Shown: positions 5,692-22,567 of the stretch, in pieces
Position numbering within the stretch: position 1 is the stretch's first letter
How the letters are laid out: each line of letters opens with the position of its first letter
Origin: Burkholderiales bacterium
GTDB taxonomy: Bacteria > Pseudomonadota > Gammaproteobacteria > Burkholderiales > SG8-39
Direction of reading: 5' to 3'
Assembly (NCBI GenBank): GCA_014860445.1
Contig: JACZJT010000031.1
Location: forward strand, 1-64,000
DNA length: 64,000 nt
Program-made: the position numbers and the translations under genes
Notes under the pieces: model-generated
The model's input: only the letters and a program-made list of their open reading frames with translations
What the model was told of the DNA's origin: nothing
The model's database searches: none

Positions 5692-5705
5692 TTGACCCTG
5701 ATCAA
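5692..5705. promoter_or_regulatory. Possible FNR/ANR-type box
   Basis: TTGACCCTGATCAA matches the FNR consensus TTGAT-N4-ATCAA at nine of ten defined positions. A candidate -10, TATAGT, lies at 5733-5738, so the box would sit near -46 rather than the classic -41.5. It precedes the Gly-rich protein and hemerythrin genes. It is weaker evidence than the boxes before the cytochrome genes. Confidence 0.45.
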
Positions 5706-6434: not shown

Positions 6435-6989
6435 ATGTCTGAGACCGTTGTCCTGTGGCAGGCCGAGCACAGGCATTTCGCGAAGCTGCTCGATTTGCTG
6501 GAAGTGCAGGTCGCCGCCTTTCATGTGGACGCCGAGCCGAACTTCCAGTTGATGCTCGATCTGGTCAGCTATCTGCGCTATTTTCCCGATCGTTACCACC
6601 ACGCGCGCGAGGATGTGGCGTTCCGCCGGATGGTCGAGCGCGAACCCCAACTTAAGCCTGCGGTAGACCGCCTGCTGCAGGAGCACCGGGTGATCGGGGC
6701 CGCGGGCGCCGAACTGCTCAAGTACCTGGAGCAGGTCATCGACGATGTGGTCATCGAGCGCGCCAAAGTGGAGGCAGCGGCGGCGACCTATCTGGTGTAT
6801 TACCGCCGCCATCTCGCGCTGGAAGACCGGGACATGGTGCCGCGCGCGGAGCAACTGCTGACACAGCAGGACTGGGACGCGGTCGCGGCCGCAGTTCCGC
6901 ACGGCACTGATCCGCTGTTCGGCGAGGAATCGGATGAGCGCTACCGCGAATTGCGCCGGCAGATCGCACTGGAGTCAAAGGAAGTCTGA
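6435..6989 (+). CDS. Hemerythrin-like HHE domain protein
   Basis: The 184-residue protein is a single four-helix hemerythrin domain that would hold a non-haem di-iron centre. The ligand pattern is visible: H in AEHRHF, HH and ED in YHHAREDVAF, EH in LLQEHRVIG, and H plus ED in YYRRHLALEDRDMVP. Bacterial members bind oxygen, sense it or store iron. It is soluble, with no signal peptide. AGGGAGG lies upstream of the ATG. It is the last gene before a 475-bp gap and the cytochrome island, so a role in oxygen or iron handling near an anaerobic respiratory system is plausible but unproven. Confidence 0.85.
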   Translation: MSETVVLWQAEHRHFAKLLDLLEVQVAAFHVDAEPNFQLMLDLVSYLRYFPDRYHHAREDVAFRRMVEREPQLKPAVDRLLQEHRVIGAAGAELLKYLEQVIDDVVIERAKVEAAAATYLVYYRRHLALEDRDMVPRAEQLLTQQDWDAVAAAVPHGTDPLFGEESDERYRELRRQIALESKEV

Positions 6990-7251: not shown

Positions 7252-7293
7252 TTGACCTAAGTCAAAAGATATCACGGTACCCGCGCGTACCCT
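7252..7293 (+). promoter_or_regulatory. FNR/ANR-type promoter of decaheme gene 1
   Basis: TTGACCTAAGTCAA (7252-7265) is a perfect inverted repeat of the FNR/ANR/DNR type. A -10-like TACCCT at 7288-7293 puts the box centre at -41.5 from a start near 7300, the spacing of a class II activator site. The rest of the 475-bp gap 6990-7464 shows only AT-rich leader sequence and a ribosome site GGGGAG before the gene. An 82-codon open frame at 7104-7352 has no support. Confidence 0.7.
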
Positions 7294-7464
7294 TTGTCCA
7301 GCGCAATAGTGCGAGCATTCTCATTGGAGTGAGGATATACGCGAGGATCTGACGACAAGAAATAGCGAGGCCGGAGAAAAGACTTGTCGTGTACCAAGGT
7401 CGCTTACCAAGACCAAGATTGTTTCGAAGTTAAGTTTGTCGTTTTTATATCTGGGGAGTAATAA

Positions 7465-10092
7465 ATGAAATATACGATACCCACAATTGTCAGATGGGGC
7501 GCGGTTGCCATGATAGTCGGTACGTTGGCAGCTTGCGGCGGCAGTTCCGACAGTACGCCTGCGGCAGGCACGGGCACGCCGACGCCTACTACACCCACAG
7601 GTAGCGTAACTGCGCCGACGGGTACGGCACCGGTTACCTTGGCTAACCTTACGGCTGCTCAAGTTGCAGCGCTCACCCCCGCGATCTCCGTCGGCAGCGT
7701 GGTTATCGCCAGCCCGCCCGTGGTCACTTTCGCGGTTTCGGACGGCGCCACGACAAACAACGCGATCATCGGCATGGGAAAGGCGACCCAGAGCGGGACA
7801 ACCCTTCCGCGTCTGGACTATCTGCGCTTCGGCCTGGCCAAACTGGTGCCGGGGACGAGCGGTGCCCCGAGCAAGTGGGTCAACTACGTCGTGAAAACGG
7901 CGCCTACGTACACGAGCGCAACCGACAAGACACTTGTCGATGGCGTAGCACAACGGCCGAACGTCGAGCGTGAAGGGACATTGGTCGACAACGGCAACGG
8001 GACCTACACCTACACCTTCATCACCGACATCACCAAGGTCAAGGATGACCTGGCAGCCGCGACCGGCGCGGCGGATTTGGGTGATCTGACCTATGATCCG
8101 ACGCTGACCCATCGCCTGACGATCCAGTTGTCCGGCGGCGACTTCGCCAACCCGGTGAACGCGATCTATGACTTTATACCCGCGACCGGTCAAGCGGTTG
8201 CAGCGACCGACACGCAGCGCCAGGTGGTTTCCATCGATAGCTGCAATCAGTGCCACGAGAAACTTGCCTTCCACGGTTCCGCGCGCATCGATACGCAATA
8301 CTGCGTCGTCTGCCATACCGACCAGCGCAAGTTTGGACGCGACGTCGTAAAGTCCACTTCGCTTGCCTTCCCGGCACTCAAAGAAACCGCCACGGTTAGT
8401 TCGACGACCGGCATTACCAGCTACAGCTATTCGCCCTCGACCTACGTCGGTGACACGGAAACCATGGGGAATTTCACCACCCTGATTCACAAAATCCACA
8501 ACGGTGCGGAGTTGAAAAAGACGGGTTACAACTACGCCAACGTCGCGTTCAACAACAAAGGCTTCTCGATGCTCGGCGGCGGGCAAAAGATGTGTTCCGT
8601 ATGCCACGACAGCACCAAGGCGGCACAGGCCGATAACTACGGCGCCGTGCCGAGCCGGCTCGCCTGCGGCGCCTGCCACGACGGCATCAACTTTGCAGAC
8701 GGATCGGGTACTACCATCGGTGGCAAGACCACGGGCCATGTGGGCAAATCGCAATCAAGCGACGCTGTCTGCGCACTGTGCCATGCTGCGGCCGATATCA
8801 AGGTCTATCACCAGACCGAGAACAAGACCGAGCACAACCCGACCGTTGCAACCGGACTGGCGAACTTCACTTATGAAATCAAGTCCGCTGCAGTGAATTC
8901 CAGCAACGTGCTGAGCGTGGTATTCAAGATCAGTAAAGACGGCACCGCGCTGACCGCGTTGCCACCTACGGGTTTCACGGGTTCGCCGAGTTTCATTCTG
9001 GCCTGGGCGGAAGCGCAGGACGGGATCGCGGCGCCTGCCGACTTCAATAACCCAAGCAATGGCAAGGGGGAGGCGTCGACCCTTACTATCGCCAACACGA
9101 CCATAAGCGGCCCGGATTCAAGCGGCTATCTCACAGCGACTGCAAAGGCTGCTGGTTCGTTCCCGACCGGCGCGAAAATGCGCACGGTGGCGTTGCAGGG
9201 CTATTACACGCAGACTTCCCCGTCGGCGGCCCGCCACACAGTTTCTGCGGTCAAGACCGTCACTGGCGACACAGCGCGTCGCCAAGTCTTCGATTCGGCC
9301 AAGTGCGCCAATTGCCACGAGTTCTTCGAAGGGCATGGCGGCAACCGAGTATTCTCGAAAGACACGCCGGCCACGGAGACGTCGGTTTGCGTGATGTGTC
9401 ACGTGCCGGCCAAAGCCACCAGCGGCCGTGGGATTTCCGATACGGCTTTGAATACCTATGCTGCAGCCGGAAATTTCTCGACGGCAGACCTGAAGAAACT
9501 GGGCGAATGGGGCCTCAGCACGACCTTCCCGGTCACGGTTGGCAGCAACTGGGCGCTGAAACTCCCGGTGACGGCCAACAACATGAAGGACATGATCCAC
9601 GGCATTCACGCAGGTCGTGAGCGCGTCACGCCGTTCAAGGATGCGCGCGACCGCTTGTCGAGCGCGATCACGCTGCTGGACTTCAGGAGAATGGATTTCC
9701 CGGGCAAGTTGAACAACTGCGAGACCTGCCACATCGCCGGTACCTATGCGAGCGTGCCCACGGGAGCGTTGGCTTCGACCTACGAGTCGATCGATGCGAC
9801 CTACAAGGCAACGGCGAACACCACCAACGCCAAGGCTGCTTACGGGCAGGCGAATCCCGAAGATAAGGTGACCTCGCCGTTTGCGGCAGCCTGCGTCGCA
9901 TGTCATGACTCGGTGGCAGCGCAGAGCCACATGTCAACCCAGGGCGGCCTGATCCAGGTGGAACGTGGTGTGACGGCTACACCCGTCGCAGGTACCTTCA
10001 CCTACAGCATCGCCACCGCGGGCAAGGGTGAGGCATGCGCGACCTGCCATGGTGTCGGCAAGGCCGAGGACATCACGGTCAAGCATAAGTAG
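7465..10092 (+). CDS. OmcA/MtrC-family decaheme outer-membrane lipoprotein 1
   Basis: 875 residues. The signal peptide ends in lipobox LAAC (Cys24), followed by a Thr/Pro/Gly-rich linker, so the protein should be lipid-anchored. A beta-rich domain (about 70-255) precedes five CXXCH motifs (CNQCH, CVVCH, CSVCH, CGACH, CALCH). A second beta-rich domain (about 455-610) and five more motifs follow (CANCH, CVMCH, CETCH, CVACH, CATCH). The first haem site is near residue 260 and the last near 858. This two-pentahaem, two-beta-domain layout is that of MtrC, MtrF and OmcA, which move electrons at the cell surface. It is the most divergent of the first three paralogues, with long insertions after haems 2 and 7. 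It has its own promoter and terminator. Confidence 0.92.
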   Translation: MKYTIPTIVRWGAVAMIVGTLAACGGSSDSTPAAGTGTPTPTTPTGSVTAPTGTAPVTLANLTAAQVAALTPAISVGSVVIASPPVVTFAVSDGATTNNAIIGMGKATQSGTTLPRLDYLRFGLAKLVPGTSGAPSKWVNYVVKTAPTYTSATDKTLVDGVAQRPNVEREGTLVDNGNGTYTYTFITDITKVKDDLAAATGAADLGDLTYDPTLTHRLTIQLSGGDFANPVNAIYDFIPATGQAVAATDTQRQVVSIDSCNQCHEKLAFHGSARIDTQYCVVCHTDQRKFGRDVVKSTSLAFPALKETATVSSTTGITSYSYSPSTYVGDTETMGNFTTLIHKIHNGAELKKTGYNYANVAFNNKGFSMLGGGQKMCSVCHDSTKAAQADNYGAVPSRLACGACHDGINFADGSGTTIGGKTTGHVGKSQSSDAVCALCHAAADIKVYHQTENKTEHNPTVATGLANFTYEIKSAAVNSSNVLSVVFKISKDGTALTALPPTGFTGSPSFILAWAEAQDGIAAPADFNNPSNGKGEASTLTIANTTISGPDSSGYLTATAKAAGSFPTGAKMRTVALQGYYTQTSPSAARHTVSAVKTVTGDTARRQVFDSAKCANCHEFFEGHGGNRVFSKDTPATETSVCVMCHVPAKATSGRGISDTALNTYAAAGNFSTADLKKLGEWGLSTTFPVTVGSNWALKLPVTANNMKDMIHGIHAGRERVTPFKDARDRLSSAITLLDFRRMDFPGKLNNCETCHIAGTYASVPTGALASTYESIDATYKATANTTNAKAAYGQANPEDKVTSPFAAACVACHDSVAAQSHMSTQGGLIQVERGVTATPVAGTFTYSIATAGKGEACATCHGVGKAEDITVKHK

Positions 10093-10103
10093 TTGACCGA
10101 CGG

Positions 10104-10174
10104 GGCACGGTTCGCCGTGCCTTGATCCAAGCTTAAAAATGACCCGGATGCGGTAACGCATCCGGGTTTTTTTT
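10104..10174 (+). terminator. UUCG hairpin plus intrinsic terminator after decaheme gene 1
   Basis: A 7-bp stem with a TTCG loop (GGCACGG/CCGTGCC, 10104-10121) is followed by an 11-bp stem ACCCGGATGCG/CGCATCCGGGT with loop GTAA (10142-10167) and a run of eight T. Beyond it, at 10285-10307, is an 8-bp inverted repeat GTACGAAG/CTTCGTAC of unknown role. Confidence 0.9.
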
Positions 10175-10368
10175 CGTCCAGCGACTGCGTCCGAAGCGAT
10201 GCGCCTCGTACGCCCGGCGCAGACGCGTGCGCCAATCCCGTCCGGAGCGAAAGCGTGACTGATCGTTCCTGGCGCCATCATCGCGTACGAAGCGGTGGTC
10301 TTCGTACTCGCGTGCAGATGGAACAAGTGCATATGACTCCCCGATGAAGTACGCCTATCGCCTTCGTT

Positions 10369-10410
10369 TTGATCTAGATCAAGCCCAAATGCGGTGCAGC
10401 ATAGTATTTT
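10369..10410 (+). promoter_or_regulatory. FNR/ANR box and promoter of decaheme gene 2
   Basis: TTGATCTAGATCAA (10369-10382) is a perfect consensus FNR site and a full palindrome. A -10-like TATTTT at 10405-10410 places its centre at -41.5 from a start near 10417. The 413-bp gap 10093-10505 holds this promoter, the preceding terminator and nothing else that I can support as a gene. Confidence 0.8.
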
Positions 10411-10505
10411 CACACTAGTCATTTTGCTAAATATCATTGGTCGTAATATCTTGTCTCGAAATCGCTAGATTATTTGCGATTGCTATTAACGGAGAGGGGG
10501 CTGCA

Positions 10506-13103
10506 ATGAAAAACCAAAAGCTGTCAACCAGGAATCGAACTCTGCCCGGATGGGCTGGCTGTATCGCGGCGGGCTTGCTGACAGTCGCGCTGGCGGGTTG
10601 TGGCGGCAGTAGCAGCGATGCCCCAGCAGCGGCCCCGGCCGCAGGCGGCGGCGCGGTGACGCCTGCAACGGCAGCTGCCAATATAGCGACGGCCACGGCA
10701 TTGGCTGCCAACGACACGGCGACCACTCCGACCGCGGCGTTCTCCGTTGTGCAGGCCGCCGGCGTTCCGGCGGTGACGATAAACAGCCCGCCCAAGGTCA
10801 ATTTCACCGTGATCTCCGACGGTGCAGTGGTGAAGGATCTGCCCCCCGGCAATGCGCGTTTCATCATCGCCAAGCTGGTACCGGGCACCAACGGCGCGCC
10901 CGACCAGTGGGCAAGCTACATCAATCGCACCGAGACGGCGACGGCGACGGTCGGCCCGAGCGGCGCACCAGTGCTGGCAAGCGCGGTACAGGCGACGACC
11001 GAAACCGCTACCGCGGATACCCTCGTCTATAACGATGCCGGTTACTATACCTACACCTTTACGACGGACATCAAGGATACCGCCCAGACCAACGGCTTAG
11101 CCTTTGATGCCAGCGCCACGCATCGCGTTGCCATTCAACTGAGTTACACCAACAAGGCTGGCGCAACGGTGCTGGTCAATCCGTATTTCGACTTCACGGT
11201 TGACGCCAACGGCAACGCGGTGGAAGTCACCGACACCGCGAAGACGCGCAAGGTGGTGGACATCGCGAGCTGCAACGAGTGTCACTCGGCGCTCGCCCTG
11301 CACGGCGGCGGCCGCGTCGATACGCAGTACTGCGTGCTGTGCCACAACTCGGGCACTACCGATGCCAACAGCGGCAACGTGCTTGATCTGCGCATCATGG
11401 CGCACAAGATCCACAACGGCGAGCATGCGAAGGAATACTTCGGCTATGACTATGCCATCTGGGGATTCCGCGACAGCAAGCACGACTACGCTGAAGTGAC
11501 CTATCCGCAGCCACTGGCCAATTGCACCAAGTGTCACGACGGCGCGAAGACACCCCAGGGCGATAACTGGAAGACCAAACCCAGCCGTGCAGCCTGCGGC
11601 GCCTGCCATACCGGCATCGACTTCGCCACCGGCAAAGGCGTGACCATGGAAGACGGACACAAGGCTGCGGCGGCAGATGCGGTGACCGCGGGATCGGGTA
11701 CTGCAATCCGTACCGCGAGCATCGGCCACATCGGCGGTTCCAAGGCCGACGACAGTCAGTGCGTGCTGTGCCATGGCGAGGCCGACATCCCGGTCTATCA
11801 CGTCACAGTTGATCCCACAGGCTCGGAAGGTCGTGGCGGTTATCCGGTCAACACTGCAACCGATGTCCCCACAGCAGGTTACCCACGTGGCCAGGGACCT
11901 GGCATACCGCTTGCGGCGCAGATGAATCTGCCGGCCGGGGTGTACAAACTCGACTATGAAATCAAGCAGGTCACCGTAGCTGGTGCCGCCGGCGCCAAGA
12001 AGGCGACAGTGGTCTATCGCATTCTTCTGGATGGAGCGCCGCTGAAATTGAATGCCACTGGTAAGTTGAAGGACGATCTTGACGGTTCGCCTGGCGTCTA
12101 CGTCGCTTGGGGACACACCCAGGATGGTATTGCCAAGCCGGCCGATTGGAACACTTACGGAAACTCGAGTGTAACGGCACTGCGTGACGGCACCGACGGC
12201 TCCCAGACCGGGCCGGACGCCGAGGGCTATTACACGGCGACCTTGCCCGACATTATCCCCGACGCCGCTACCCACGTAACCGCCGCCATTGGTGTCGATT
12301 ACCAGGGGTTCGTTCAATCGGGTCTTACGGCCTATCCAAAGGGGATACGCTTGCGCGAGCCGAAGTTTGTGATGAAGGTTGCCGACGGCTATGACGCCCG
12401 CCGACCCATCGTCAGCGCCGACAAGTGCAACGCCTGCCACGCCCAGTTGGGTGTCGCCCCGTCGTTCCATAGCGGCGCGCGCAACAACGGCGAAGGCTGC
12501 GCCATCTGTCACGACGCCAACAGGGCTACCAGCCATGGCGGCAGCTGGAATGTCGGTGTCAAGAACCTGGTTCACGGAATCCACGGCGGGTCCAAGCGGG
12601 CACAGGATTTCAGCTACGAAGCAACCGCGACAAACACCAAGGGCTTCGGCAAGGTTACTTATCCGGGCGTGCTGAAGAACTGCGAGCAATGTCACGTTGA
12701 GGGCAGCTACGACTTCAGCGGCACGGCTAACAAGGCTGCTCTGCCCAATCTGCTCTGGACTACCGATGCAAATGGGGATGAGAGAGCTGCGGCGGACCTC
12801 GGCCTTTCGCCCTGGTTGACGGCCTTGGCTACCGGAAAAGACGACTACAGGACCGATAATCTTGTAACCTCGCCGATTACCTCTGCCTGCTTCGGTTGCC
12901 ATGACAGCACGACCGCAGTAACGCATATGCAGAGCAATGGTGGCAGCATCTACGCGAAGTTTTCAAGCGTAGCGTCGGTCGCGACACGCCCGGCCGAGGG
13001 CACAGCTTCCACCATGACCTTTACCAAGGCGGAGCAGTGCATGACCTGCCATAGCTCGAGCAGCACGTATGGCTTGGGCATCAAGGCGGTGCATGCAAAA
13101 TAA
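10506..13103 (+). CDS. OmcA/MtrC-family decaheme outer-membrane lipoprotein 2
   Basis: 865 residues from the ATG at 10506, which follows GGAGAGGGGG. Signal peptide with lipobox LAGC and an Ala/Pro-rich linker. The layout is beta domain, five CXXCH (CNECH, CVLCH, CTKCH, CGACH, CVLCH), beta domain (roughly 440-620), and five CXXCH (CNACH, CAICH, CEQCH, CFGCH, CMTCH), from about residue 256 to 845. It is closely similar to the next gene over nearly its whole length. Shared features include the N-terminal MKNQKLS, the stretch YHVTVDPTGS, and the C-terminal GIKAVHAK. It is a single-gene unit with its own FNR-type promoter and terminator. An extracellular redox role is inferred from the family. Confidence 0.92.
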   Translation: MKNQKLSTRNRTLPGWAGCIAAGLLTVALAGCGGSSSDAPAAAPAAGGGAVTPATAAANIATATALAANDTATTPTAAFSVVQAAGVPAVTINSPPKVNFTVISDGAVVKDLPPGNARFIIAKLVPGTNGAPDQWASYINRTETATATVGPSGAPVLASAVQATTETATADTLVYNDAGYYTYTFTTDIKDTAQTNGLAFDASATHRVAIQLSYTNKAGATVLVNPYFDFTVDANGNAVEVTDTAKTRKVVDIASCNECHSALALHGGGRVDTQYCVLCHNSGTTDANSGNVLDLRIMAHKIHNGEHAKEYFGYDYAIWGFRDSKHDYAEVTYPQPLANCTKCHDGAKTPQGDNWKTKPSRAACGACHTGIDFATGKGVTMEDGHKAAAADAVTAGSGTAIRTASIGHIGGSKADDSQCVLCHGEADIPVYHVTVDPTGSEGRGGYPVNTATDVPTAGYPRGQGPGIPLAAQMNLPAGVYKLDYEIKQVTVAGAAGAKKATVVYRILLDGAPLKLNATGKLKDDLDGSPGVYVAWGHTQDGIAKPADWNTYGNSSVTALRDGTDGSQTGPDAEGYYTATLPDIIPDAATHVTAAIGVDYQGFVQSGLTAYPKGIRLREPKFVMKVADGYDARRPIVSADKCNACHAQLGVAPSFHSGARNNGEGCAICHDANRATSHGGSWNVGVKNLVHGIHGGSKRAQDFSYEATATNTKGFGKVTYPGVLKNCEQCHVEGSYDFSGTANKAALPNLLWTTDANGDERAAADLGLSPWLTALATGKDDYRTDNLVTSPITSACFGCHDSTTAVTHMQSNGGSIYAKFSSVASVATRPAEGTASTMTFTKAEQCMTCHSSSSTYGLGIKAVHAK

Positions 13104-13105
13104 TA

Positions 13106-13122
13106 TGACCTGAGTCAGGTCA
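13106..13122. repeat. 17-bp palindrome just after decaheme gene 2
   Basis: TGACCTGAGTCAGGTCA begins two bases after the stop codon. It could be the base of a 3' structure ahead of the UUCG hairpin, or a protein binding site. A remnant, CTGGTCACAG, is found at the same place after decaheme gene 3. Confidence 0.5.
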
Positions 13123-13130
13123 CAGAAGTA

Positions 13131-13206
13131 TTGCCGGTTGCGGTTCGCCGCCTCCGGCAAGGCAAAAAGATCGACCCGGAGGCGGGAACGCCTCCGGGTT
13201 TTTTTT
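13131..13206 (+). terminator. UUCG hairpin plus intrinsic terminator after decaheme gene 2
   Basis: Stem TTGCCGG/CCGGCAA with inner GCGG-TTCG-CCGC (13131-13160) is followed by the 11-bp stem ACCCGGAGGCG/CGCCTCCGGGT with loop GGAA (13174-13199) and eight T. The order of elements is the same as after genes 1 and 3. Confidence 0.9.
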
Positions 13207-13314
13207 GCACTTCGGAATTGCGTAACACGCTAATTATTGTCATCAAGTTGTGGTACTTGACAACAATACTATTTTAGTCGCAAGTAATTGATATATCGGG
13301 AAAAATCTCCATCG

Positions 13315-13355
13315 TTGATCTAGATCAAAGGCGTTCTGGAACCCAGGAGTATTTT
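13315..13355 (+). promoter_or_regulatory. FNR/ANR box and promoter of decaheme gene 3
   Basis: TTGATCTAGATCAA (13315-13328) is identical to the box before decaheme gene 2. The -10-like TATTTT at 13350-13355 is also the same, one base closer. The box centre falls near -40.5 to -41.5. The 351-bp gap 13104-13454 contains the previous terminator, an AT-rich stretch and this promoter. Confidence 0.8.
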
Positions 13356-13454
13356 GCATGCCATCTGGGCGAAATAGGGACAGTTGAGGTTCTTGCCCCC
13401 GTAGTTACGCCAGACGGACAGGCAATTTACATTAACGTGCGAAAGGGAGCGGGA

Positions 13455-16313
13455 GTGAAAAACCAAAAGCTGTCAAGCAGGGATCGAACTTTGTACAGAT
13501 GGACGAGTTGTATCGCGGCGGGCTTACTGACAGTCGCGCTGGCGGGTTGCGGCGGCAGTAGCAGTAGCGATGCTCCGGCCGCTACTACAGGCGGCACCAC
13601 CACCACTACTACTACCTCAGGCGCGCCAGTCGGCACGGCCGTCATTACAGCGGCTGCGGCGAGCCCGACCACGACCAATACCGCGGGCAACCCTGCACAG
13701 GCATTTGGCCTCATCGCGGATACCGGCGCGGCGACAGTTACCATTCAAAGTCCGCCCGTCGTTAACTTCACCGTGATCGATTCCGCTGGCAAATTCGTGC
13801 CCGGCCTGAAACTGATTGTGGACGCCGGCAAGGCAGACCCAGCGTGCACCACTAGCACCACATCCACGGCCGGTCACGTGACCTTTGCCATGGCCAAATG
13901 GAATGAAACCGCTGGCTGGCAGAGCCTTATCTCCCGCCAGAGACTGGAAGCGGATACCACGACGCCTGCAGTCAAATATGCGGTGGTGGAGGGGACGACC
14001 GATCCGAAGCCCACCACAACCCTCACCAATCCAGACACCGCGGTTAGTGATGCCAGCACCCGGGTGGTGGGGATTTTGGAAGAAAATGCCGCGGGCGGTT
14101 ATTACACTTACCGTTTCGCTACGGACGTGGTGACGCCGCTGCTGATGCAAGACGCGGTTGCAGGCAAGAGCATTGCTGCGTCGGCCGCAACCAAGACAGC
14201 CCCCGCCTATATGAACAAGGTCGCCAACAACGGCAACGTGGTGGTCAAGGACGGGAAGTCCATCTATCGCGTCGGCGTGCAGTTGTGCTACACCGACCCG
14301 GCGTCGAGCGCCAAAGTCGTGGTTAATCCCATCATGGACTTCACTGTCGGAACCGATGGCGTGGCGGTGCCGGTCAAGGCCGCGGACGGCAAGACCCTGG
14401 CGCCCTACAGAAAAGTAGTTGGCGCGGAATCCTGCAACGAGTGTCACTCGACGCTGAAAGTCCACGGCACGCGCGTCGATCCGAATTATTGCGTGATCTG
14501 CCACAACGCCGCCAGCACCGACTACAACACCAAGAACCCGATTGAGTTGAAGGTGATGGTTCACAAGATTCACGCAGGCGAGCACCTGAAAGAATGGTTC
14601 AACGAAAGCTTTAAGGTCGCCTCGGTGGATTTCTCCGAAGTCACCTACCCGCAGCCGCTGACCAACTGCACCAAGTGTCACTCCGCCGACAAGAAGGATG
14701 CCGCCGGTATCCAGTTGGCCGCAGATGGCGACAACTGGAAGAAAGTACCGACGCGTGCTGGCTGCGGCGCTTGCCATAGCGGCATTAACTTCGCCACCGG
14801 CAAAGGCCCAACTATTGGCAATGCGGAAGCGGATATTGAAGCGGGCAAGGCGATCGGTACGACGTCCACCGGGCACATCGGCGGCTCGAAGCAGGATGAC
14901 ACGCAGTGCGTCCTCTGCCATACCTCTGCCGACATTCCCGTGTATCACGTGACGGTCGATCCCACGGGATCCAGCGGTCGCGCCGGCTACCCGGCAAATA
15001 CCGCAACCAATGTTCCGACTGCCGGGTTCTCTTCCGGTCAAGGACCGTCCATCCCGCTGGCCTCCCAGCTGAATCTGCCGGCCGGCGTCTACAAGATCGA
15101 TTTTGAGATCAAGCAGGTGTCAGTCGCCGGTGCCGCAGGCGCCAAGAAAGCCACGGTCGTGTATCGCATTCTGAAAGACGGAAAACCGGTGACCTTGAAC
15201 GCTACAGGGTACCTGATCGACAACGTCGACGGCTCGCCCGGCGTCTACGTGGCCTATGCAATTGCCCAGGACGGTATTACCGCCCCTGCCGATTGGAATG
15301 CCAGCACCAACGCCACTGTCAAGGCTTTACGTGACGGCAAGCTTCAGACTGGACCCGACGCAGACGGTTATTACACCGCGACACTGAGCGCCACCATCCC
15401 CGATGCGGCGACGATGGTAACCGCCGGTGTTGGCATTGACTACCAGGGCTTTGTTCAACTGGGTTTGACGGCATATCCGAAAGGAATCCGGCTGCGTGAG
15501 CCCAAGTTCGCGATGAAGGTCGCGGATGGCTATACCGCCCGCCGCTCCATCGTCAGCGCCGACAGTTGCAACAACTGCCATGGCCAGTTGGGGGTAGGTC
15601 CCTCGTTCCACGGCGGCGCACGCAACAACGGCGAAGGCTGCGCTTTGTGCCATACGCCTAACAATGCTACGGGTCATGTCGGTTCAACCTATGACTTTGG
15701 CGGCGGCTGGTCGGTTCAGAGTAAAAACCTGATCCACTCCATCCACGGTTCAGGCAAGCGGGCGCAAGCTTTCACCTACGAAGCGACCGCCGCGAATCCG
15801 AACGGCTTCAAGAAGGTAACGTATCCGGGCATATTGAAGAATTGTGAGCAATGTCACGTTGCCGGCAGCTATGACTTCAGCGGCACGGATAACAAGGCGG
15901 CGTTGGGCAACCTGCTCTGGACCACGGATGCAAGGGGAGACATGAGCAATCCTACCAGCGCCAAGTCCATCGGACTTTCGCCCTGGGTAACGACCTTGGG
16001 CTCAGGACAGGTTGACTACAACAGCGATAATCTGGTGTCTTCGCCGATCGCCTCAGCCTGCTTCGGTTGCCACGATAGTTCGACAGCAGTTACGCACATG
16101 GTATCGAACGGCGGCACACTGGTTTCGCGTGCCTCCACCGTTTCTACCGGCGCGCGACCGGTGTATCAGGTGAAGGTTGGTAGCGTGACCACCACGAAGC
16201 AGCCGACTGACGCATCCAATACGCTGAAATTCACCAAGTCCGAGCAGTGCATGACCTGCCATAGCTCGACCAGCACCTATGGTCTGGGCATCAAGGCGGT
16301 GCATGCGAAATAG
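13455..16313 (+). CDS. OmcA/MtrC-family decaheme outer-membrane lipoprotein 3
   Basis: 952 residues. I chose GTG at 13455 because the following codons (KNQKLS) align with the start of gene 2 and GGGAGCGGGA precedes it. Lipobox LAGC, then a Ser/Thr-rich linker. Ten CXXCH: CNECH, CVICH, CTKCH, CGACH, CVLCH, then CNNCH, CALCH, CEQCH, CFGCH, CMTCH, from about residue 327 to 932. The first beta domain is about 70 residues longer than in gene 2. It holds two cysteines that are not in haem motifs (DPACTT and VQLCYT), which may form a disulphide. The rest is close to gene 2, which points to tandem duplication followed by change in the outer domain. Confidence 0.92.
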   Translation: MKNQKLSSRDRTLYRWTSCIAAGLLTVALAGCGGSSSSDAPAATTGGTTTTTTTSGAPVGTAVITAAAASPTTTNTAGNPAQAFGLIADTGAATVTIQSPPVVNFTVIDSAGKFVPGLKLIVDAGKADPACTTSTTSTAGHVTFAMAKWNETAGWQSLISRQRLEADTTTPAVKYAVVEGTTDPKPTTTLTNPDTAVSDASTRVVGILEENAAGGYYTYRFATDVVTPLLMQDAVAGKSIAASAATKTAPAYMNKVANNGNVVVKDGKSIYRVGVQLCYTDPASSAKVVVNPIMDFTVGTDGVAVPVKAADGKTLAPYRKVVGAESCNECHSTLKVHGTRVDPNYCVICHNAASTDYNTKNPIELKVMVHKIHAGEHLKEWFNESFKVASVDFSEVTYPQPLTNCTKCHSADKKDAAGIQLAADGDNWKKVPTRAGCGACHSGINFATGKGPTIGNAEADIEAGKAIGTTSTGHIGGSKQDDTQCVLCHTSADIPVYHVTVDPTGSSGRAGYPANTATNVPTAGFSSGQGPSIPLASQLNLPAGVYKIDFEIKQVSVAGAAGAKKATVVYRILKDGKPVTLNATGYLIDNVDGSPGVYVAYAIAQDGITAPADWNASTNATVKALRDGKLQTGPDADGYYTATLSATIPDAATMVTAGVGIDYQGFVQLGLTAYPKGIRLREPKFAMKVADGYTARRSIVSADSCNNCHGQLGVGPSFHGGARNNGEGCALCHTPNNATGHVGSTYDFGGGWSVQSKNLIHSIHGSGKRAQAFTYEATAANPNGFKKVTYPGILKNCEQCHVAGSYDFSGTDNKAALGNLLWTTDARGDMSNPTSAKSIGLSPWVTTLGSGQVDYNSDNLVSSPIASACFGCHDSSTAVTHMVSNGGTLVSRASTVSTGARPVYQVKVGSVTTTKQPTDASNTLKFTKSEQCMTCHSSTSTYGLGIKAVHAK

Positions 16314-16343
16314 GGTGGCTGAAATCTGGTCACAGTAAGCACG

Positions 16344-16424
16344 CCGGGGCGTGGTTCGCCGGGCCCCGGAAAATCCGCAACACTGAACAACCCGGCGGCG
16401 GCAACGCTTCCGGGTTGTTTTTTT
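16344..16424 (+). terminator. UUCG hairpin plus intrinsic terminator after decaheme gene 3
   Basis: Stem CCGGGGC/GCCCCGG around GG-TTCG-CC (16344-16369), then CAACCCGG/CCGGGTTG (16388-16417) with a T run to 16424. The second stem is less perfect than after genes 1 and 2, but the order and spacing are the same. Confidence 0.85.
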
Positions 16425-16502
16425 GTGCCAGCCCCGCAAGGACGGCCATGCGGGCCCTGTTCGCATTACAATCGCTATTCAAGTAAATTCAGGAGCCATT
16501 TC

Positions 16503-16922
16503 ATGAAATCCAGCATCTTCCAAACCGCATTTCTCGCGGCAGCGCTGATTCTCTTGCCCGGATTGTCCCTCGCAGCAACCGACAAAGCGCCGGCGGCGGG
16601 CGAGCCCAAGGCCGCCACCAAGGCGAAAGCCGCCGAGAAAGGCGACAAGGCAAAGGGCAGCAAGGCCGCCGCCAAAATCAAGCTTGTGGACATCAACAGC
16701 GCCGGCAAGGCGGAACTGAAGTCGCTGCCCGGGATCAGCGATGCGGACGCTGACAAGATCATCGCCGGCCGGCCCTACCTCAGCAAGGCCAATCTCGCGA
16801 CCCACAACATTATTTCACGCGAGGTGTACGATGCACTCAAGACGCGTGTGATCGCCAAGCAGAACAAGGCGACCGAGGCCAAGGTCAAGGAAAAGCAGCA
16901 GGAGAAGCAGAAAGCGCGATGA
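16503..16922 (+). CDS. Exported ComEA-like helix-hairpin-helix protein
   Basis: 139 residues from the ATG at 16503, with AGGAG seven bases upstream. A signal peptide (MKSSIFQTAFLAAALILLPGLSLAA) leads to a Lys/Ala-rich linker and one HhH domain: LVDINSAGKAELKSLPGI...ADKIIAGRPYLSKANL. The C-terminal tail is Lys/Gln-rich. HhH domains of this type bind DNA, and the best-known exported one is ComEA of DNA uptake. Short exported forms with this RPY motif are common in proteobacteria with no proven role. It sits alone between the third and fourth decaheme genes, with no other competence gene nearby. Confidence 0.82.
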   Translation: MKSSIFQTAFLAAALILLPGLSLAATDKAPAAGEPKAATKAKAAEKGDKAKGSKAAAKIKLVDINSAGKAELKSLPGISDADADKIIAGRPYLSKANLATHNIISREVYDALKTRVIAKQNKATEAKVKEKQQEKQKAR

Positions 16923-17087
16923 CCCTTATCGCCGCCTTGGAAACAGGGCACAATGCGTTTGCAACAGGCCGTAAACTACTTTAGCATTACACGCGCTTTT
17001 CAAAGCGGTGGAGCGTTTGTGAATAGCGCAGCGCCGCCGATGTTTGTAGAGCGAGGGAGCAGCTTGCATTCAATCAAAAGGGTAGTC

Positions 17088-19415
17088 ATGAACAAGCAGC
17101 GATCAGGGTTTCAACATTGGATCGGTCTTCTTCCCCGGCGCGGGAATCTTGTTGCGAGCTTTGCAGTGAGCCTGCTGGCTTTGGCATTGGCGGGCTGCGG
17201 AGGCGGCGGTTCGGGTGGCGCTACGGCTGCCACCGGGACCGGTTTGGTGACGAGCGGGAATGCCAGCGCTCCGGCCGCATTGGCGGCTTCAACGGCCCTG
17301 AATGTGGGCATTACCGGGGTCACCATCAACAGCCCGCCGGTGGTCAACTTCACCGTCACCAACCAGGCCGGCGTCGGCATGGGCGGCCTGGTCGACTCCG
17401 ATCTGCGCTTCAATATCGCAAAGTTGGTTCCAGATTCAGGCGGGGGACCAAGCGTCTGGCAGAATTACATCAATCGGGAACGGGACGGTGCGGTACAGGG
17501 GAGCCAGGAGCGCTCGGCCACAGGTTACGCTTTCGGCACCTTGGTCAATAACGGGAACGGCAGTTACAGCTATACCTTTGCCACCGACATCAAAAGCGCA
17601 ACCTGCCCGGCACCCTGCACCGATGCAGACGGCAAAGCGCTCGATATCAGCTATCAGTCGGGCCTGACGCACCGAGTAAGTATCCAGCAGGCCAACGGTG
17701 CTTATCCGAAGGCGGCGGGCGTCTATGATTTCGTGCCGAGCGGCGGCAGCGGTGTAAAGCGCGATATCGTCGCCACGGCGACGTGCAACAGCTGCCACAA
17801 CGAGCTTACGGTACACGGCACGCGCGTGGATACCAAGCTGTGCGTTACCTGCCACAACCCGGGTTCCTGGGTCGCGGGTACGACCAATACGCCGGTGGAT
17901 TTCAAGGTGATGATCCACAAAATACATTACAACAAGGCCGGTGCGGCACTGCCCAGCGTGCTCGCCGGCACGCCGTACACCATCGGCAGCAAGGACTACT
18001 CCAGCGTGGTTTTCCCGCAGGATGCGCGCAGCTGCACCCGATGCCACGATGGCACTGGTGGTGCGAGCGTAACGGCCACTACGCAGGGCGACAACTGGAA
18101 AACCCAGCCGAGCCGAGGCGCCTGCGGTGCGTGTCATGACGATGTTTATTTCGGCACCGCACCCGACGCGGCCAAGCCCTATCAGACCAAGGCGCATTCG
18201 GGCGGCGTCATGAGCGACGACAGCAATTGCGCGCTATGCCATGCGGCAGGGAGGTTCACCGATAACAAGGATATTGTCGTAGCGCATAATTTCCAGGTGA
18301 GGTTCAAGGCTGCGACGGCCAAGTTCAAGTACAACATCCTCAGCGCGACACCGACCAGCGCCGGCAGTTTCCCGGTGATTACTTTTTCAGTCACCGACCC
18401 GACCAATGCCGATGCGCCCTACGATATCAAGACTGCGGCTGCATTTACGGCAGGCGGTGCGAGCACGCTTAACGTGAAACTCGGCTGGAGCACCTCGGAC
18501 TTCAGCAACGAGGGCAGCGGCCAAAATTTCGGGCAGCCGGTCAGCATCAATGCGCTGACGTCCGCCGTAGCTGGCGCTACCGCAGGCACGTACACGGTTA
18601 CATCGACGGTTGCCGTGCCGGCCGCGCAAACGGGGACGTTGCGCGTCATGATGGACGGGCATCCCGCCGGAGATGTGACTACCGCCGGGACGTTTGCCGA
18701 CCGTTTGCCGGTAACCAGCGCATTCAAGGATTATGCGATCACCGGAACCGCCACGGCGCGGCGAGTGGTGGTCGACGTGGCCAAGTGCGACGTCTGCCAC
18801 GATGTGCTCAGCCTGCACGGCAACAACCGTAGCGAAGAGCCAGGCGTCTGCGCGGTTTGCCACAATCCCAACGCGACCGATGCCAGCCGGCGTCCGAGCA
18901 CCGCAGGTGTGCTCACCGGCGGCACGGACGGCAAGCTGGAAGAATCGATCGATTTCAAGACCATGATCCACGCGATCCATGCCGGACAATCGAGCAATGG
19001 CGGGTTCCGCACCAAGGGAATCACCGTCTATGGCTTCGGCGGCAGCGTCAACGACTTCAGCAAAGTCGTGTTCCCGGGCAAGCTGAAGGATTGCTCAACC
19101 TGTCACGCGGGGACCTCGTATCAACTGGCCGGTACCTGGGCCACGCCGACGGCAAGCGGGATACTGGGCAACACCATCAGCACAGGCGCGCTGACCGCCA
19201 ATCCGGCGGACAACCTGAGAATTTCGCCGACCGCGGCGGTATGTTCGTCCTGCCACGATGGCGCTGCGGCGAAGCTTCATATGCAGGACGCGTTCAACGG
19301 CGGGAACTTCTCGGCTACGCAAGCGGCGCTCACTGCTGGCGCGGTGGAAAACTGCTCGTTCTGCCACGGCGCTGGCAGATCCTATGACGTGAAGACAGTC
19401 CACGGCGTGCAGTGA
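17088..19415 (+). CDS. OmcA/MtrC-family decaheme outer-membrane lipoprotein 4
   Basis: 775 residues from the ATG at 17088, preceded by AAAGGG; longer starts would put a non-secretory stretch before the signal peptide. Lipobox LAGC, then a Gly-rich linker. Ten CXXCH: CNSCH, CVTCH, CTRCH, CGACH, CALCH, CDVCH, CAVCH, CSTCH, CSSCH, CSFCH, from about residue 233 to 756. An extra Cys pair (CPAPC) lies in the first beta domain. It is the shortest and closest in size to MtrC/OmcA. It ends 20 bp before the MtrA-like gene, so it is the member most likely to be the true MtrC partner of the MtrAB conduit. I see no FNR box directly upstream. Confidence 0.92.
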   Translation: MNKQRSGFQHWIGLLPRRGNLVASFAVSLLALALAGCGGGGSGGATAATGTGLVTSGNASAPAALAASTALNVGITGVTINSPPVVNFTVTNQAGVGMGGLVDSDLRFNIAKLVPDSGGGPSVWQNYINRERDGAVQGSQERSATGYAFGTLVNNGNGSYSYTFATDIKSATCPAPCTDADGKALDISYQSGLTHRVSIQQANGAYPKAAGVYDFVPSGGSGVKRDIVATATCNSCHNELTVHGTRVDTKLCVTCHNPGSWVAGTTNTPVDFKVMIHKIHYNKAGAALPSVLAGTPYTIGSKDYSSVVFPQDARSCTRCHDGTGGASVTATTQGDNWKTQPSRGACGACHDDVYFGTAPDAAKPYQTKAHSGGVMSDDSNCALCHAAGRFTDNKDIVVAHNFQVRFKAATAKFKYNILSATPTSAGSFPVITFSVTDPTNADAPYDIKTAAAFTAGGASTLNVKLGWSTSDFSNEGSGQNFGQPVSINALTSAVAGATAGTYTVTSTVAVPAAQTGTLRVMMDGHPAGDVTTAGTFADRLPVTSAFKDYAITGTATARRVVVDVAKCDVCHDVLSLHGNNRSEEPGVCAVCHNPNATDASRRPSTAGVLTGGTDGKLEESIDFKTMIHAIHAGQSSNGGFRTKGITVYGFGGSVNDFSKVVFPGKLKDCSTCHAGTSYQLAGTWATPTASGILGNTISTGALTANPADNLRISPTAAVCSSCHDGAAAKLHMQDAFNGGNFSATQAALTAGAVENCSFCHGAGRSYDVKTVHGVQ

Positions 19416-19435
19416 GGATAAGGATCAACAAGACC

Positions 19436-20428
19436 ATGGCTAACGGACAGACAACGATGACTATCAAGAAACTTCTATTTGCCGCGCTGCTGTCCGGTTT
19501 CGCGTTCGGCGCCTTCGCTGCGGACAAGCCAGCCGACAAGGCCGCCGAGCCGCCCGCGCCGCCACCCAGCATGGGCACCGAATACACCGATACCGGCGCC
19601 GACACCTGTTTGATGTGTCACGTGGAGGGTGGCGATTTTCCGGTACATGCGATATTCAAGACCAAGCATGCAAACCGCGCCGACAAGCGCACGCCTTTTG
19701 CACCAGGGAACCTGCAATGTGAGGCCTGCCATGGTCCGGGCAAGAAGCACGCCGATGCTGGCGGCGGACCGGACGGCATCAATAGCCAGGAGCGCAGTTC
19801 CTTCCTGACGCCGCAGCAGCGCAACAAGTACTGTTTGGAGTGTCACCAAAACGGACCACGCACCGGCTGGCATGCCAGTACGCACGACAGCAATAATGTC
19901 GCCTGCGCCAGTTGTCACAAGATTCACGCCGAGCGCGATCCTGTATTGGCGACGGCGACCCAGCCCGAGGTCTGCTACAAGTGCCATCGCAAGGAGCGCG
20001 CGGACTTTTCCAAGCCGTCCACGCATCCGGTGCGCTTCGGCAAGATGGCCTGCAGCGATTGCCACAGCCCGCACGGGTCGACCAGCACCGGCATGTTGAT
20101 CAAGCCGACAGTGAACCAGACCTGCTATACCTGCCACGCGGAAAAGCGCGGCCCCTTCCTCTGGGAACACGCGCCCGTGGCCGAAGATTGCACGTTGTGC
20201 CACCACCCGCATGGCTCGGTCAATCCGGCGCGATTGAAGAAGAACCCGCCGCTGCTGTGCCAGCAGTGCCATTCGGTGGCAGGGCATCCTTCGGTGGCGC
20301 GTACCCCGGCTGGGCTGCCGGGCGGCGGCGCAGGCGGGCAGGCGTTCCTGCTTGCCGGGAGTTGCCTCAATTGCCATTCGCAGATCCACGGCTCGAACCA
20401 CCCGTCCGGCGTGAAGTTGATGCGCTAA
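19436..20428 (+). CDS. mtrA: DmsE/MtrA-family periplasmic decaheme c-type cytochrome
   Basis: About 330 residues, close to MtrA (333). A Sec signal peptide (TIKKLLFAALLSGFAFGAFA) has no lipobox. Ten CXXCH are evenly spread: CLMCH, CEACH, CLECH, CASCH, CYKCH, CSDCH, CYTCH, CTLCH, CQQCH, CLNCH. SPHGS and HPHGS after haems 6 and 8 are typical of DmsE/MtrA. In known systems the protein is threaded into the MtrB barrel as a haem wire across the outer membrane. I chose ATG 19436, with AAGGAT upstream. ATG 19457 is equally possible, and GTG 19412 overlaps the previous stop. It is part of an operon with the fourth lipoprotein and mtrB. Confidence 0.92.
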   Translation: MANGQTTMTIKKLLFAALLSGFAFGAFAADKPADKAAEPPAPPPSMGTEYTDTGADTCLMCHVEGGDFPVHAIFKTKHANRADKRTPFAPGNLQCEACHGPGKKHADAGGGPDGINSQERSSFLTPQQRNKYCLECHQNGPRTGWHASTHDSNNVACASCHKIHAERDPVLATATQPEVCYKCHRKERADFSKPSTHPVRFGKMACSDCHSPHGSTSTGMLIKPTVNQTCYTCHAEKRGPFLWEHAPVAEDCTLCHHPHGSVNPARLKKNPPLLCQQCHSVAGHPSVARTPAGLPGGGAGGQAFLLAGSCLNCHSQIHGSNHPSGVKLMR

Positions 20429-20479
20429 CCGGTCGATGCGAAATCCGGTAACGAGACAAACTGCAAACAGGATCAGATC

Positions 20480-22567
20480 ATGAAGACCTCGAATCAACTG
20501 CTTTTGCTTGGTGCGCTGTCGGCACTGTCCCCCGTTGCTGTGGCGGACGGCCCTGCCGCCCCGGATACGGCGAATTGGAAATGCGAGTCCTGCAAATTCG
20601 AGCAAGGGGTTAGCGGGACGCTGGATGCCGGCGTGGGTTCGGTGTCGGACAAGTCGTCCGAGTTCGGTCAATACAACGGTCTTTACAAGAAGGGTGGCTA
20701 TTTCATCGGCGGCACCTCGGTGCGCTCGCGCGGCGCGGACGGCGCCTATTGGAATCTCGATGCATCCGATCTCGGGCTGGATACTCGCTCTATCGGTGCC
20801 GAAGGCGGAAAGCAGGGCAGCTACAAGCTGAGCTTCAAGTACGACGAGACGCCGCACCGCATCGGGAACGACGCGCTGACGCCGTTTTCGGGCAACGGCG
20901 GCGCATCGCTGACTTTGCCGGCCGGCTTTGCAACGACTACCACGGCGGGTATGCCCCTGGCTGCGTCACAGCAGCAGGTCGATCTGTACACGCAAAGAAA
21001 AATGCTGGGCGTCGGCGCGTCCTGGAATCGCACCACCCAGTGGGAATACGCGGTCAACTTCCGCCATGAGACGCGCGACGGCAACATCCTGCGCACCGGC
21101 GGCGCATTTTTCGTCAATACGGCGCAGCTGATCGAACCGGTGGACTACGTCACCGACCAGATGGATGCCTCGGCTTCCTATGCCGGCAGGAAATTTCAGA
21201 TGAAGCTCGCCTATTACGCATCGAAATTCAGCAACGGCAATCAGGCGCTGAATTGGCAAAACCCCTATACGCCGATCGTCGGCGAGACCGCCGGTCAGAT
21301 TGCGTTGCCGCCGGATAACCAGTTTCACCAGGTGTCGGCGTCCCTGGGATACCAGTTGAGCGACAAGACCCGCGCCAGCGCCGATATCGCGTTCGGGCGC
21401 ATGACGCAGAACGACAGTTTCCTGGGGTCTACGCAGAATGCCGCGCTGGTCGTGCCCGGCCTGCCGGGAACCTCGCTGAACGGGCGTGCGGAGACCATGG
21501 ACGCAAATCTGAAACTCAGTTCCGCGGTCACGGACAAGCTGCGGCTGAATGCGCTGTATTCGCACAACGATCGCGACAATCAGACGCCGCAGGCATCGTA
21601 TCCTTCGGTGGCGACCGATATGTTCCTCGGGACGGCACGAACCAATCTGCCGTATAGCTTTACCCAGGACAAAGTGAAGCTGAGCGCCGATTACCGCGCG
21701 ACATCGCGGCTGCGGGGCGCTATCGGCGCGGATTTCGATTCGAACAAGCGCAGCTACCAGGAGATCGATACGACGCGCGAGGACACGGCCTGGGGCAAGA
21801 TCAGTTCCCGCGTAACCGACAAAATCGACCTGAGCCTGAAGCTAGCGCATGGCGAGCGCAGGAACACCGGCTCCTTCCAGGTGATACCGGGCATCACCCC
21901 TGCGGAGAATCCGCTGCTCAGAAGGTTCAACATGGCCAATCGCACGCGCGAAACCGTCGGGTTGCGCGCGGACATCGGCGTCGCGGAGAATTTCAACCTT
22001 GGACTCGGTGTGGATTCGTCGGACGACAAGTATGAAGATTCCAGCATCGGCCTGACCAGCGCCAAAGACCTGAGCGTCAACGGCGACCTCTCCTGGACGG
22101 TGTCGGAGAAAACCAGGCTGCACTTTTTCGCGAACCACCAGGTGATCAAGTCCAGGCAAGCCGGCAGCCAGACGTTTTCGCTGCCTGACTGGAACGCGGA
22201 CAACAAGGACACAATCGATACCTTCGGCCTGGGCGTGAAGCACGCGGCGATCAAGGACAAGCTCGATATCGGTGCAGACTATGCGGTGACACGCTCGCGC
22301 AGCGAGATCAACGTCAATAACGGGGCAGGCAATCCGGCCTTCCCCGAGGTCACCGCGAATCTCAACGGCCTGAAACTCTATGCCGATTACCGCTTGAAAG
22401 AGAACGTATCGCTGCAGGCGGGTTATTGGCACGAGCGCTACGACAGCAAAGACTGGATGACCGAAGGCATCGCGCCCGCCACCATCCCGAACGTGCTGAC
22501 ACTGGGGCTGCAGTCGCCGCAGTACAGCGTGAATGTGGTCAGACTGTCGGTTAGATACAAGTTCTAG
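20480..22567 (+). CDS. mtrB: MtrB/PioB-family outer-membrane beta-barrel
   Basis: 695 residues, matching MtrB (about 697). A signal peptide is followed by a CXXC pair (CESC, residues 35-38), as in Shewanella MtrB. The remainder is alternating amphipathic strands, many ending in aromatic residues, with the C-terminal strand VVRLSVRYKF ending in Phe as outer-membrane barrels do. MtrB sheathes MtrA and allows contact with surface decaheme proteins. It lies 51 bp after mtrA and is the last gene of the operon, followed by two GC hairpins. Confidence 0.92.
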   Translation: MKTSNQLLLLGALSALSPVAVADGPAAPDTANWKCESCKFEQGVSGTLDAGVGSVSDKSSEFGQYNGLYKKGGYFIGGTSVRSRGADGAYWNLDASDLGLDTRSIGAEGGKQGSYKLSFKYDETPHRIGNDALTPFSGNGGASLTLPAGFATTTTAGMPLAASQQQVDLYTQRKMLGVGASWNRTTQWEYAVNFRHETRDGNILRTGGAFFVNTAQLIEPVDYVTDQMDASASYAGRKFQMKLAYYASKFSNGNQALNWQNPYTPIVGETAGQIALPPDNQFHQVSASLGYQLSDKTRASADIAFGRMTQNDSFLGSTQNAALVVPGLPGTSLNGRAETMDANLKLSSAVTDKLRLNALYSHNDRDNQTPQASYPSVATDMFLGTARTNLPYSFTQDKVKLSADYRATSRLRGAIGADFDSNKRSYQEIDTTREDTAWGKISSRVTDKIDLSLKLAHGERRNTGSFQVIPGITPAENPLLRRFNMANRTRETVGLRADIGVAENFNLGLGVDSSDDKYEDSSIGLTSAKDLSVNGDLSWTVSEKTRLHFFANHQVIKSRQAGSQTFSLPDWNADNKDTIDTFGLGVKHAAIKDKLDIGADYAVTRSRSEINVNNGAGNPAFPEVTANLNGLKLYADYRLKENVSLQAGYWHERYDSKDWMTEGIAPATIPNVLTLGLQSPQYSVNVVRLSVRYKF

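Follow-up and report, generated by a model that had tools for sequence, protein, structure and literature searches.

Among described systems, those closest to the locus reported here are the omcA-mtrCAB genes of Shewanella oneidensis and the mtrCAB clusters surveyed by Baker et al. (2022, PMC8805035). Each of omcA and mtrC in S. oneidensis is transcribed from its own promoter; CRP activates both, and their responses to oxygen are opposite (PMC4417206). In Shewanella MtrC, the N-terminal half alone docks on MtrAB and the C-terminal half has substrate sites (Morales-Florez et al. 2025, PMC12304082); haem 5 is the contact of MtrC to MtrA in S. baltica, for which a hinge is also described (PMC7198977). 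Baker et al. found at least one extra mtrC in 44% of mtrCAB clusters, the extras ranging from one to four, and reported from Betaproteobacteria an HhH gene beside mtrC, including mtrC of the Group-4 type. In the sections of that survey drawn on here, whole mtrC genes are taken as the unit of exchange. The cluster analysed here belongs to a Burkholderiales bacterium (genome G000; 4.61 Mb in 73 contigs, estimated completeness 99.52%, contamination 2.64%) and lies in a stretch of 64,000 nucleotides, hereafter the window (bases 1–64000 of contig C55). It differs from the survey in the unit concerned, as the ancillary surface cytochromes of its host lineage include mosaics made of halves exchanged between paralogous genes.

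Positions 7465–22567 of the window encode four decahaem lipoproteins (c1 to c4), a decahaem MtrA and an MtrB/PioB barrel, all on the + strand, to which all coordinates within the window refer. An earlier note on this DNA had counted ten CXXCH motifs in each of five proteins beside a 695-residue barrel and had read them as OmcA/MtrC-family partners of an MtrAB conduit, an assignment that six-frame translation and family models bear out. Exactly ten CXXCH occur in each of the five frames, the other listed frames above 60 aa with any such motif having one or two. The four lipoproteins score 408–562 bits against TIGR03507 of NCBIfam (cut-off 209.3) and so belong to the OmcA/MtrC family: c1 (7465..10092, 875 aa, 407.9 bits), c2 (10506..13103, 865 aa, 562.4 bits), c3 (13455..16313, 952 aa, 471 bits; likely start GTG 13455, by comparison with c2) and c4 (17088..19415, 500.4 bits; likely start ATG 17088). 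MtrA (19457..20428) reaches 302.8 bits with TIGR03508, the DmsE/MtrA family (cut-off 192.2), and MtrB (20480..22567, 695 aa) 514.5 bits with TIGR03509 (cut-off 240.05) and 593.4 bits with PF11854. Pfam concurs, PF22113 being over cut-off in c1–c4 and PF22112 in c1, c2 and c4 only. The ten motifs of c1–c4 are split in two groups of five, and a lipobox-like motif, LAAC or LAGC in these four proteins, was found in them and in a fifth protein, c5, introduced below. Among solved structures of the family, whose fold comprises split-barrel domains I and III and haem domains II and IV, c3 matched by sequence seven chains (of MtrF, MtrC and OmcA), while the single match of c4 was MtrF 3pmq (E 2.3e-36). 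Judged from sequence, the cluster is an MtrCAB conduit (c4-mtrA-mtrB), with the barrel and the decahaem MtrA adjoining the core mtrC, plus three ancillary OmcA-like surface decahaem lipoproteins (c1–c3). It resembles omcA-mtrCAB of S. oneidensis in its decahaem OmcA/MtrC-family lipoproteins, MtrA, MtrB and an ancillary gene that here, too, probably has its own promoter (PMC4417206), but G000 has no NapC/CymA-family match and one barrel match, and its lineage has the mosaics.

Two genes missing from the earlier note are the HhH gene at 16503–16922 and c5. The latter, the fifth surface cytochrome of the genome, was detected by family search on contig C56 (match at 177223–179541; gene at L043:9211–11832) as an 873-aa frame with ten motifs. 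When the five proteins are aligned, c3 switches partner along its length: its first ~50 residues and its C-terminal half are c2-like, and the part between is c5-like. Identity of c3 to c5 is 67–81% in nine of the first ten alignment windows and below 35% in nine of the 13 scored windows of the C half; identity to c2 is 30–50% across domain I and 60–82% in the C-half windows. At 322 sites c3 matches only c2 or only c5. Residues 56–366 (13620..14552, reaching to haem 2 and ending before haem 3) are c5-like at 85 of 95 such sites and residues 376–951 are c2-like at 184 of 202, values that neither segment reached in any of 2000 shuffles of site order. The stretch of haems 3–5 is mixed, which puts the second breakpoint after haem 2 and no later than the region that follows haem 5. 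This natural breakpoint roughly coincides with the end of MtrC DI,II, the truncation that leaves the docking half of MtrC; the latter is a laboratory truncation of a core protein, whereas the former would reflect natural recombination among ancillary proteins (PMC12304082). For the truncated form, compare chain 9eov_A, an MtrC with a listed length of 323 aa.

Perfect FNR-type palindromes (TTGATCTAGATCAA) stand 5' of both c2 (10369..10382) and c3 (13315..13328), starting 137 bp and 140 bp before the respective start codons. Given these matching distances, c3 has the appearance of a tandem duplicate of c2 whose first half has been exchanged. The sequence of c5 itself looks like N+N', with a C half derived from an N-type half, since three properties of this C half are all N-like. 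Its match to the family model falls in the first half of the model and not in the second (c5 gives two matches, to model positions 3–361 and 4–313); its haem spacing (18, 61, 32, 24) is similar to the spacing in the N half of c5 (19, 66, 29, 35); and of its best nine BLAST hits, two are to C halves of c5-type proteins and seven, at 30–32%, to the N halves of other proteins. The c5 gene stands between the gene of a Crp-type regulator and a two-component pair (histidine kinase and response regulator). The 12-kb stretch that surrounds the c5-type gene in G013 yielded no homologue of this regulator, and in G049 the contig stops directly behind the c5-type gene.

The exchange extends beyond c3. Forty-three surface cytochromes with ten motifs, from the window and its relatives, were cut at haem 5, and 41 were kept in separate trees of the two halves (L046_1667 and L062_9304 were dropped). 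Seven proteins with another number of motifs were excluded (L049_179, L064_12694, L104_10552, L106_6085, L109_15868, L112_1800 and L112_3738), the five-motif frames L037_7398, L061_4055, L061_5680 and L108_7176 never entered, and the loci L064 and L067, which repeat stretches of G049 and G009, were counted once. The N-half tree contains (c3,(c5,L056)) with support 100/100 and places L050_8678, from G009, in the c2 clade (99/97); the C-half tree contains (c3,(c2,L054)) (100/99) and (L050_8678,(c5,L056)) (100/100). These placements indicate that all four pairings of a c2-type or c5-type N half with a c2-type or c5-type C half exist. They are embodied by c2, c3, c5 and L050_8678, the last being the reciprocal of c3. 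Approximately unbiased (AU) tests of six swapped clades, in groups named after the trees were seen, rejected all six (log-likelihood loss 193–647, p-AU from 6.3e-8 down). One of the six cases concerns L058_4507 and L059_230, both from G006, which are sisters by their N halves and have C halves that are far apart. Uneven rates, considered as a source of the conflict between the trees, are ruled out by losses of at least 193 in both directions. In quick trees of 59 of the 60 proteins, mapping the C classes on the N tree takes no fewer than 23 changes (minimum for 20 classes: 19), and mapping the N classes on the C tree takes no fewer than 17 (minimum for 14 classes: 13). This excess requires at least about four re-pairings, and more are possible where the donor is unsampled.

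These comparisons establish, at the level of sequence, that the ancillary genes of the host lineage include mosaics of pentahaem halves (N, domains I/II; C, domains III/IV) swapped between paralogues. Searches of openly licensed papers for an earlier report of half-gene exchange found none among the papers listed, which in one case were 20 of 155, judged mostly from titles and the starts of abstracts. Within the passages of Baker et al. on recombination, mosaicism or domains (12 of 17), none states half-gene mosaics, and 'mosaic' appears in the reference list only (PMC8805035). Four surface partners on one conduit, which had been presented as unusual, do not constitute the novelty, as published clusters reach four mtrC beyond the core (PMC8805035). 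The number of extra mtrC genes and the HhH gene were already known; the new part is the half-gene exchange inside ancillary genes.

The core genes behave differently. The 15 c4-type proteins encoded next to mtrA in the host family and near relatives form one clade in both the N tree (100/100) and the C tree (96/95). When these 15 proteins and 24 of the 28 ancillaries (L038_1, L046_1667, L054_9261 and L062_9304 left out) are compared in pairs, the identities of the two halves differ by at least 25 points in 28 of 276 ancillary pairs against 0 of 105 core pairs. The sequences of the host family thus show a core mtrC that has not been shuffled. Just after haem 5, all 15 core proteins show an H and then N, D or K, with AH in 14 and KAA just after in 13; the ancillaries have YH in 23/28, including c1–c3 and c5, and the core form in 0/28. 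Among c1–c4, c4 alone is of the core type by sequence, as it adjoins mtrA, is intact across the host family and carries the core sequence after haem 5.

Ancillary and core genes also differ in their upstream regions. The palindrome TTGAT-N4-ATCAA is found twice in perfect form in the window, before c2 and c3, and six times with up to one mismatch, against 0.87 expected. The relaxed form TTGAY-N4-RTCAA also occurs before c1 (Crp/Fnr-type, TTGACCTAAGTCAA, 7252..7265) and once elsewhere in the window, at 5692. In the first set of relatives, it precedes 13/25 ancillary genes, 0/15 core genes and 0/16 HhH genes, four genes with a short upstream region being omitted (L038_1, L045_10165, L046_1667 and L054_9261). 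The Fisher p of 0.0005 for ancillary against core genes is a guide only, because the pattern was relaxed after an initial inspection and the genes share ancestry; as a control, 4000 dinucleotide shuffles gave eight hits. In the genome, one match exceeds the cut-off of the FNR model and four more score strongly without reaching it. In G565, two perfect FNR-type palindromes stand 5' of a core-type mtrC (L109:8433–10748) and two 5' of a nearby eight-motif cytochrome (15868–17970).

Separate promoters for c1–c3, as the earlier note had it, are indicated indirectly, by gaps of 413 bp (c1-c2) and 351 bp (c2-c3), by a palindrome before each gene and by terminator-like hairpins after c1 (10141..10168), after c2 (13173..13200, resembling the one after c1) and, by eye, after c3; c4, mtrA and mtrB are tightly packed. 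The hairpin after c1 is among the longest stems of a scan whose total is at chance level (18 found, 17.0 expected). As the scan of the window for sigma-70-type promoters is also at chance level (6 found, 5.6 expected), no statistical weight is given to either scan. For separate control of ancillary and core genes there is a precedent in kind, S. oneidensis omcA and mtrC (PMC4417206). The core gene here has no palindrome, whereas omcA and mtrC of strain MR-1 are both under CRP control.

As to the inner-membrane link, no CymA-type quinol oxidase had been noticed in the window, and this holds for the rest of the genome: a search with PF03264 (NapC/NirT family, which includes CymA) gave no match in G000 and does find matches in E. 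coli. Contig C51 (L119:508–7668) came up in a search for doubled CXXCH motifs: side by side on it are genes for a pentahaem cytochrome, an iron-sulphur protein resembling HmcB/HybA and an NrfD protein resembling HmcC/HybB. Next come genes for a histidine kinase, for a cytochrome with nine motifs and a hydrophobic stretch at its C terminus, and for a cytochrome b561; two-component genes lie in the same stretch. The adjacent HmcB-like and HmcC-like proteins and the small pentahaem cytochrome recall NrfD quinone modules of the HmcBC/HybAB type, but the C51 proteins score below the curated cut-offs. The module was also considered as NetBCD, an identity rejected because no NetB match is among those listed and HmcB/HmcC-like and HybA/HybB-like matches appear instead. 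It is a candidate quinol oxidase, and, as a guess, it might serve the conduit as a substitute for CymA.

Taken as a whole, the data probably reflect a docked core MtrCAB accompanied by ancillary terminals that were diversified by half-gene exchange. Several observations weigh against this reading. Outside the host family, in other families of the same order or class, surface cytochromes adjoin mtrA that have c2-type N halves (L102_8628 of G472, L102:8628–11384; L104_7837 of G354, L104:7837–10551; L116_8518 of G721, L116:8518–10713) or a c5-type N half (L107_11757 of G223, L107:11757–14297). N halves that are ancillary here may therefore dock elsewhere; these four proteins sit by distant barrels, 25–36% identical to the MtrB of the window. 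L115_4174 is a core-type mosaic outside the host family, with an N half near L109 and a C half near L111/L113 (AU p 0.0007 and 0.00003). The relaxed palindrome is missing before 12/25 ancillary genes, c5 included, while perfect palindromes precede core-type L109_8433 and L114_139, near ones L110_375 (all outside the host family) and a one-mismatch palindrome L068_6418, inside it. The C51 module is unlinked to the mtr cluster, and its proteins fall short of the NCBIfam cut-offs. Shewanella OmcA is able to draw some electrons from MtrAB when MtrC is absent (PMC12304082). Lastly, the roles of the halves are known for Shewanella MtrC only, a core protein, and are extended to the ancillaries by analogy. 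L107_11757 was also tried as a mosaic and is not counted as a proven one, the AU p for joining its C half with c5 being 0.235.

Some of these points would suit the model of the earlier note, according to which c1–c4 are equivalent and interchangeable, each docking on the single MtrAB and being selected by its own promoter. One mtrAB for four surface partners, the intergenic gaps and palindromes before c1–c3, the partial electron transfer to OmcA just mentioned, and the four mtrA-adjacent proteins with c2-type or c5-type N halves, which may dock on some MtrAB, all speak for it. However, the sequence after haem 5 splits all 15 core proteins from the 28 ancillaries, core halves are unshuffled in the host family, and MtrAB-only cells did not reduce soluble OmcA (PMC12304082). 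Interchangeability as originally stated is not supported, since c4 alone is of the core type and c1–c3 do not carry the core sequence after haem 5, and the model appears unlikely.

A reversed direction, in which electrons would be taken from Fe(II) or a cathode in the manner of MtoAB/PioAB and the surface proteins would act as collectors, likewise appears unlikely. MtoC belongs to the NapC family, of which the genome has no match, and the Fnr-type palindromes suggest anaerobic expression. Two findings of Baker et al. favour this direction: on the MtrA and MtrB trees, MtoA/PioA and MtoB/PioB do not form clades of their own, and mtoC/mtoD were found beside betaproteobacterial mtrCAB (PMC8805035). 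The case for Fe(III) reduction over Fe(II) oxidation comes from the Fnr-type sites and is the least secure step of the docked-core reading. An assembly artefact joining paralogues, conceivable as the genome is split into contigs and many relatives are fragmented, is rejected as highly improbable, because the halves of c3 are only 61% (c5) and 69% (c2) identical to their in-genome relatives, too divergent to be copies joined by the assembler, and other mosaics come from separate assemblies (L050_8678 in G009; L058_4507 versus L059_230 in G006).

Within the host family, 17 of 98 genomes have a surface cytochrome over cut-off and 42 of 98 a barrel over cut-off. Order and class samples gave 7/399 and 10/369 genomes with a match over cut-off, figures that are lower bounds since two to three candidates were scored per genome; both samples count the host genome, and the order sample also counts G017. 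The relatives G009, G017 and G019 have up to three ten-motif surface cytochromes on the mtrB contig in the stretches fetched, which is a lower bound because several contigs end inside the cluster; G049 has six matches over cut-off on five contigs, one match being present as two stretches. The four proteins of the window are the highest number on one contig in this analysis. The HhH gene (16503..16922; PF12836) encodes a small ComEA-like protein with a signal-like N terminus. According to tblastn searches, in which the rest of contig C55 (L039–L042) was searched for mtrB and HhH only, such a gene is directly 5' of core mtrC in 11/15 family-type clusters, the window included. This arrangement, mtrC-mtrA-mtrB with a neighbouring extra mtrC and an HhH gene, is that of Groups 3/4 of Baker et al. 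(PMC8805035).

Three further observations concern gene content. A hemerythrin-domain gene lies just 5' of the cluster (6435–6989). In G649 (L112:1800–6617, contig C14), core mtrC-mtrA-mtrB has as neighbours two frames, of 640 aa (11 CXXCH) and 959 aa (19 CXXCH). In G004 (L061:4055–6987, contig C2), an ancillary cytochrome is present as two overlapping five-motif frames, perhaps a broken gene or a sequencing error.

Under the docked-core reading, the following model for electron flow can be drawn. Quinol would be oxidized by a non-CymA enzyme, possibly the HmcBC/HybAB-like module of C51 with its pentahaem cytochrome. Electrons would then go from the periplasm through MtrA, inside MtrB, to c4, which would dock on MtrAB via haem 5 and pass them outward and to the ancillary lipoproteins. 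Many ancillary genes would be expressed under a Crp/Fnr-family regulator, probably at low oxygen. If the halves of the ancillaries split their work as those of MtrC do, replacement of one half would change the partner or the substrate and the rest would keep working: a swap of the C-terminal half might alter what the ancillary reduces, and the N-terminal half would keep the fit to the electron donor. While the exchange of halves is directly visible in the alignments and trees, this functional meaning is proposed by analogy with MtrC.

On balance, the ancillaries of these Betaproteobacteria seem to form a natural combinatorial set, in which a limited number of N docking halves and C substrate halves, including the c5 type, would be re-paired by recombination, providing new terminals on one fixed conduit. 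For studying what determines the substrate range of surface cytochromes, the genome offers ready-made natural test pairs, c2 and c3 sharing a C half and c3 and c5 an N half. Whole-protein trees of MtrC/OmcA can mix two histories, and trees of this family should therefore be built per half.

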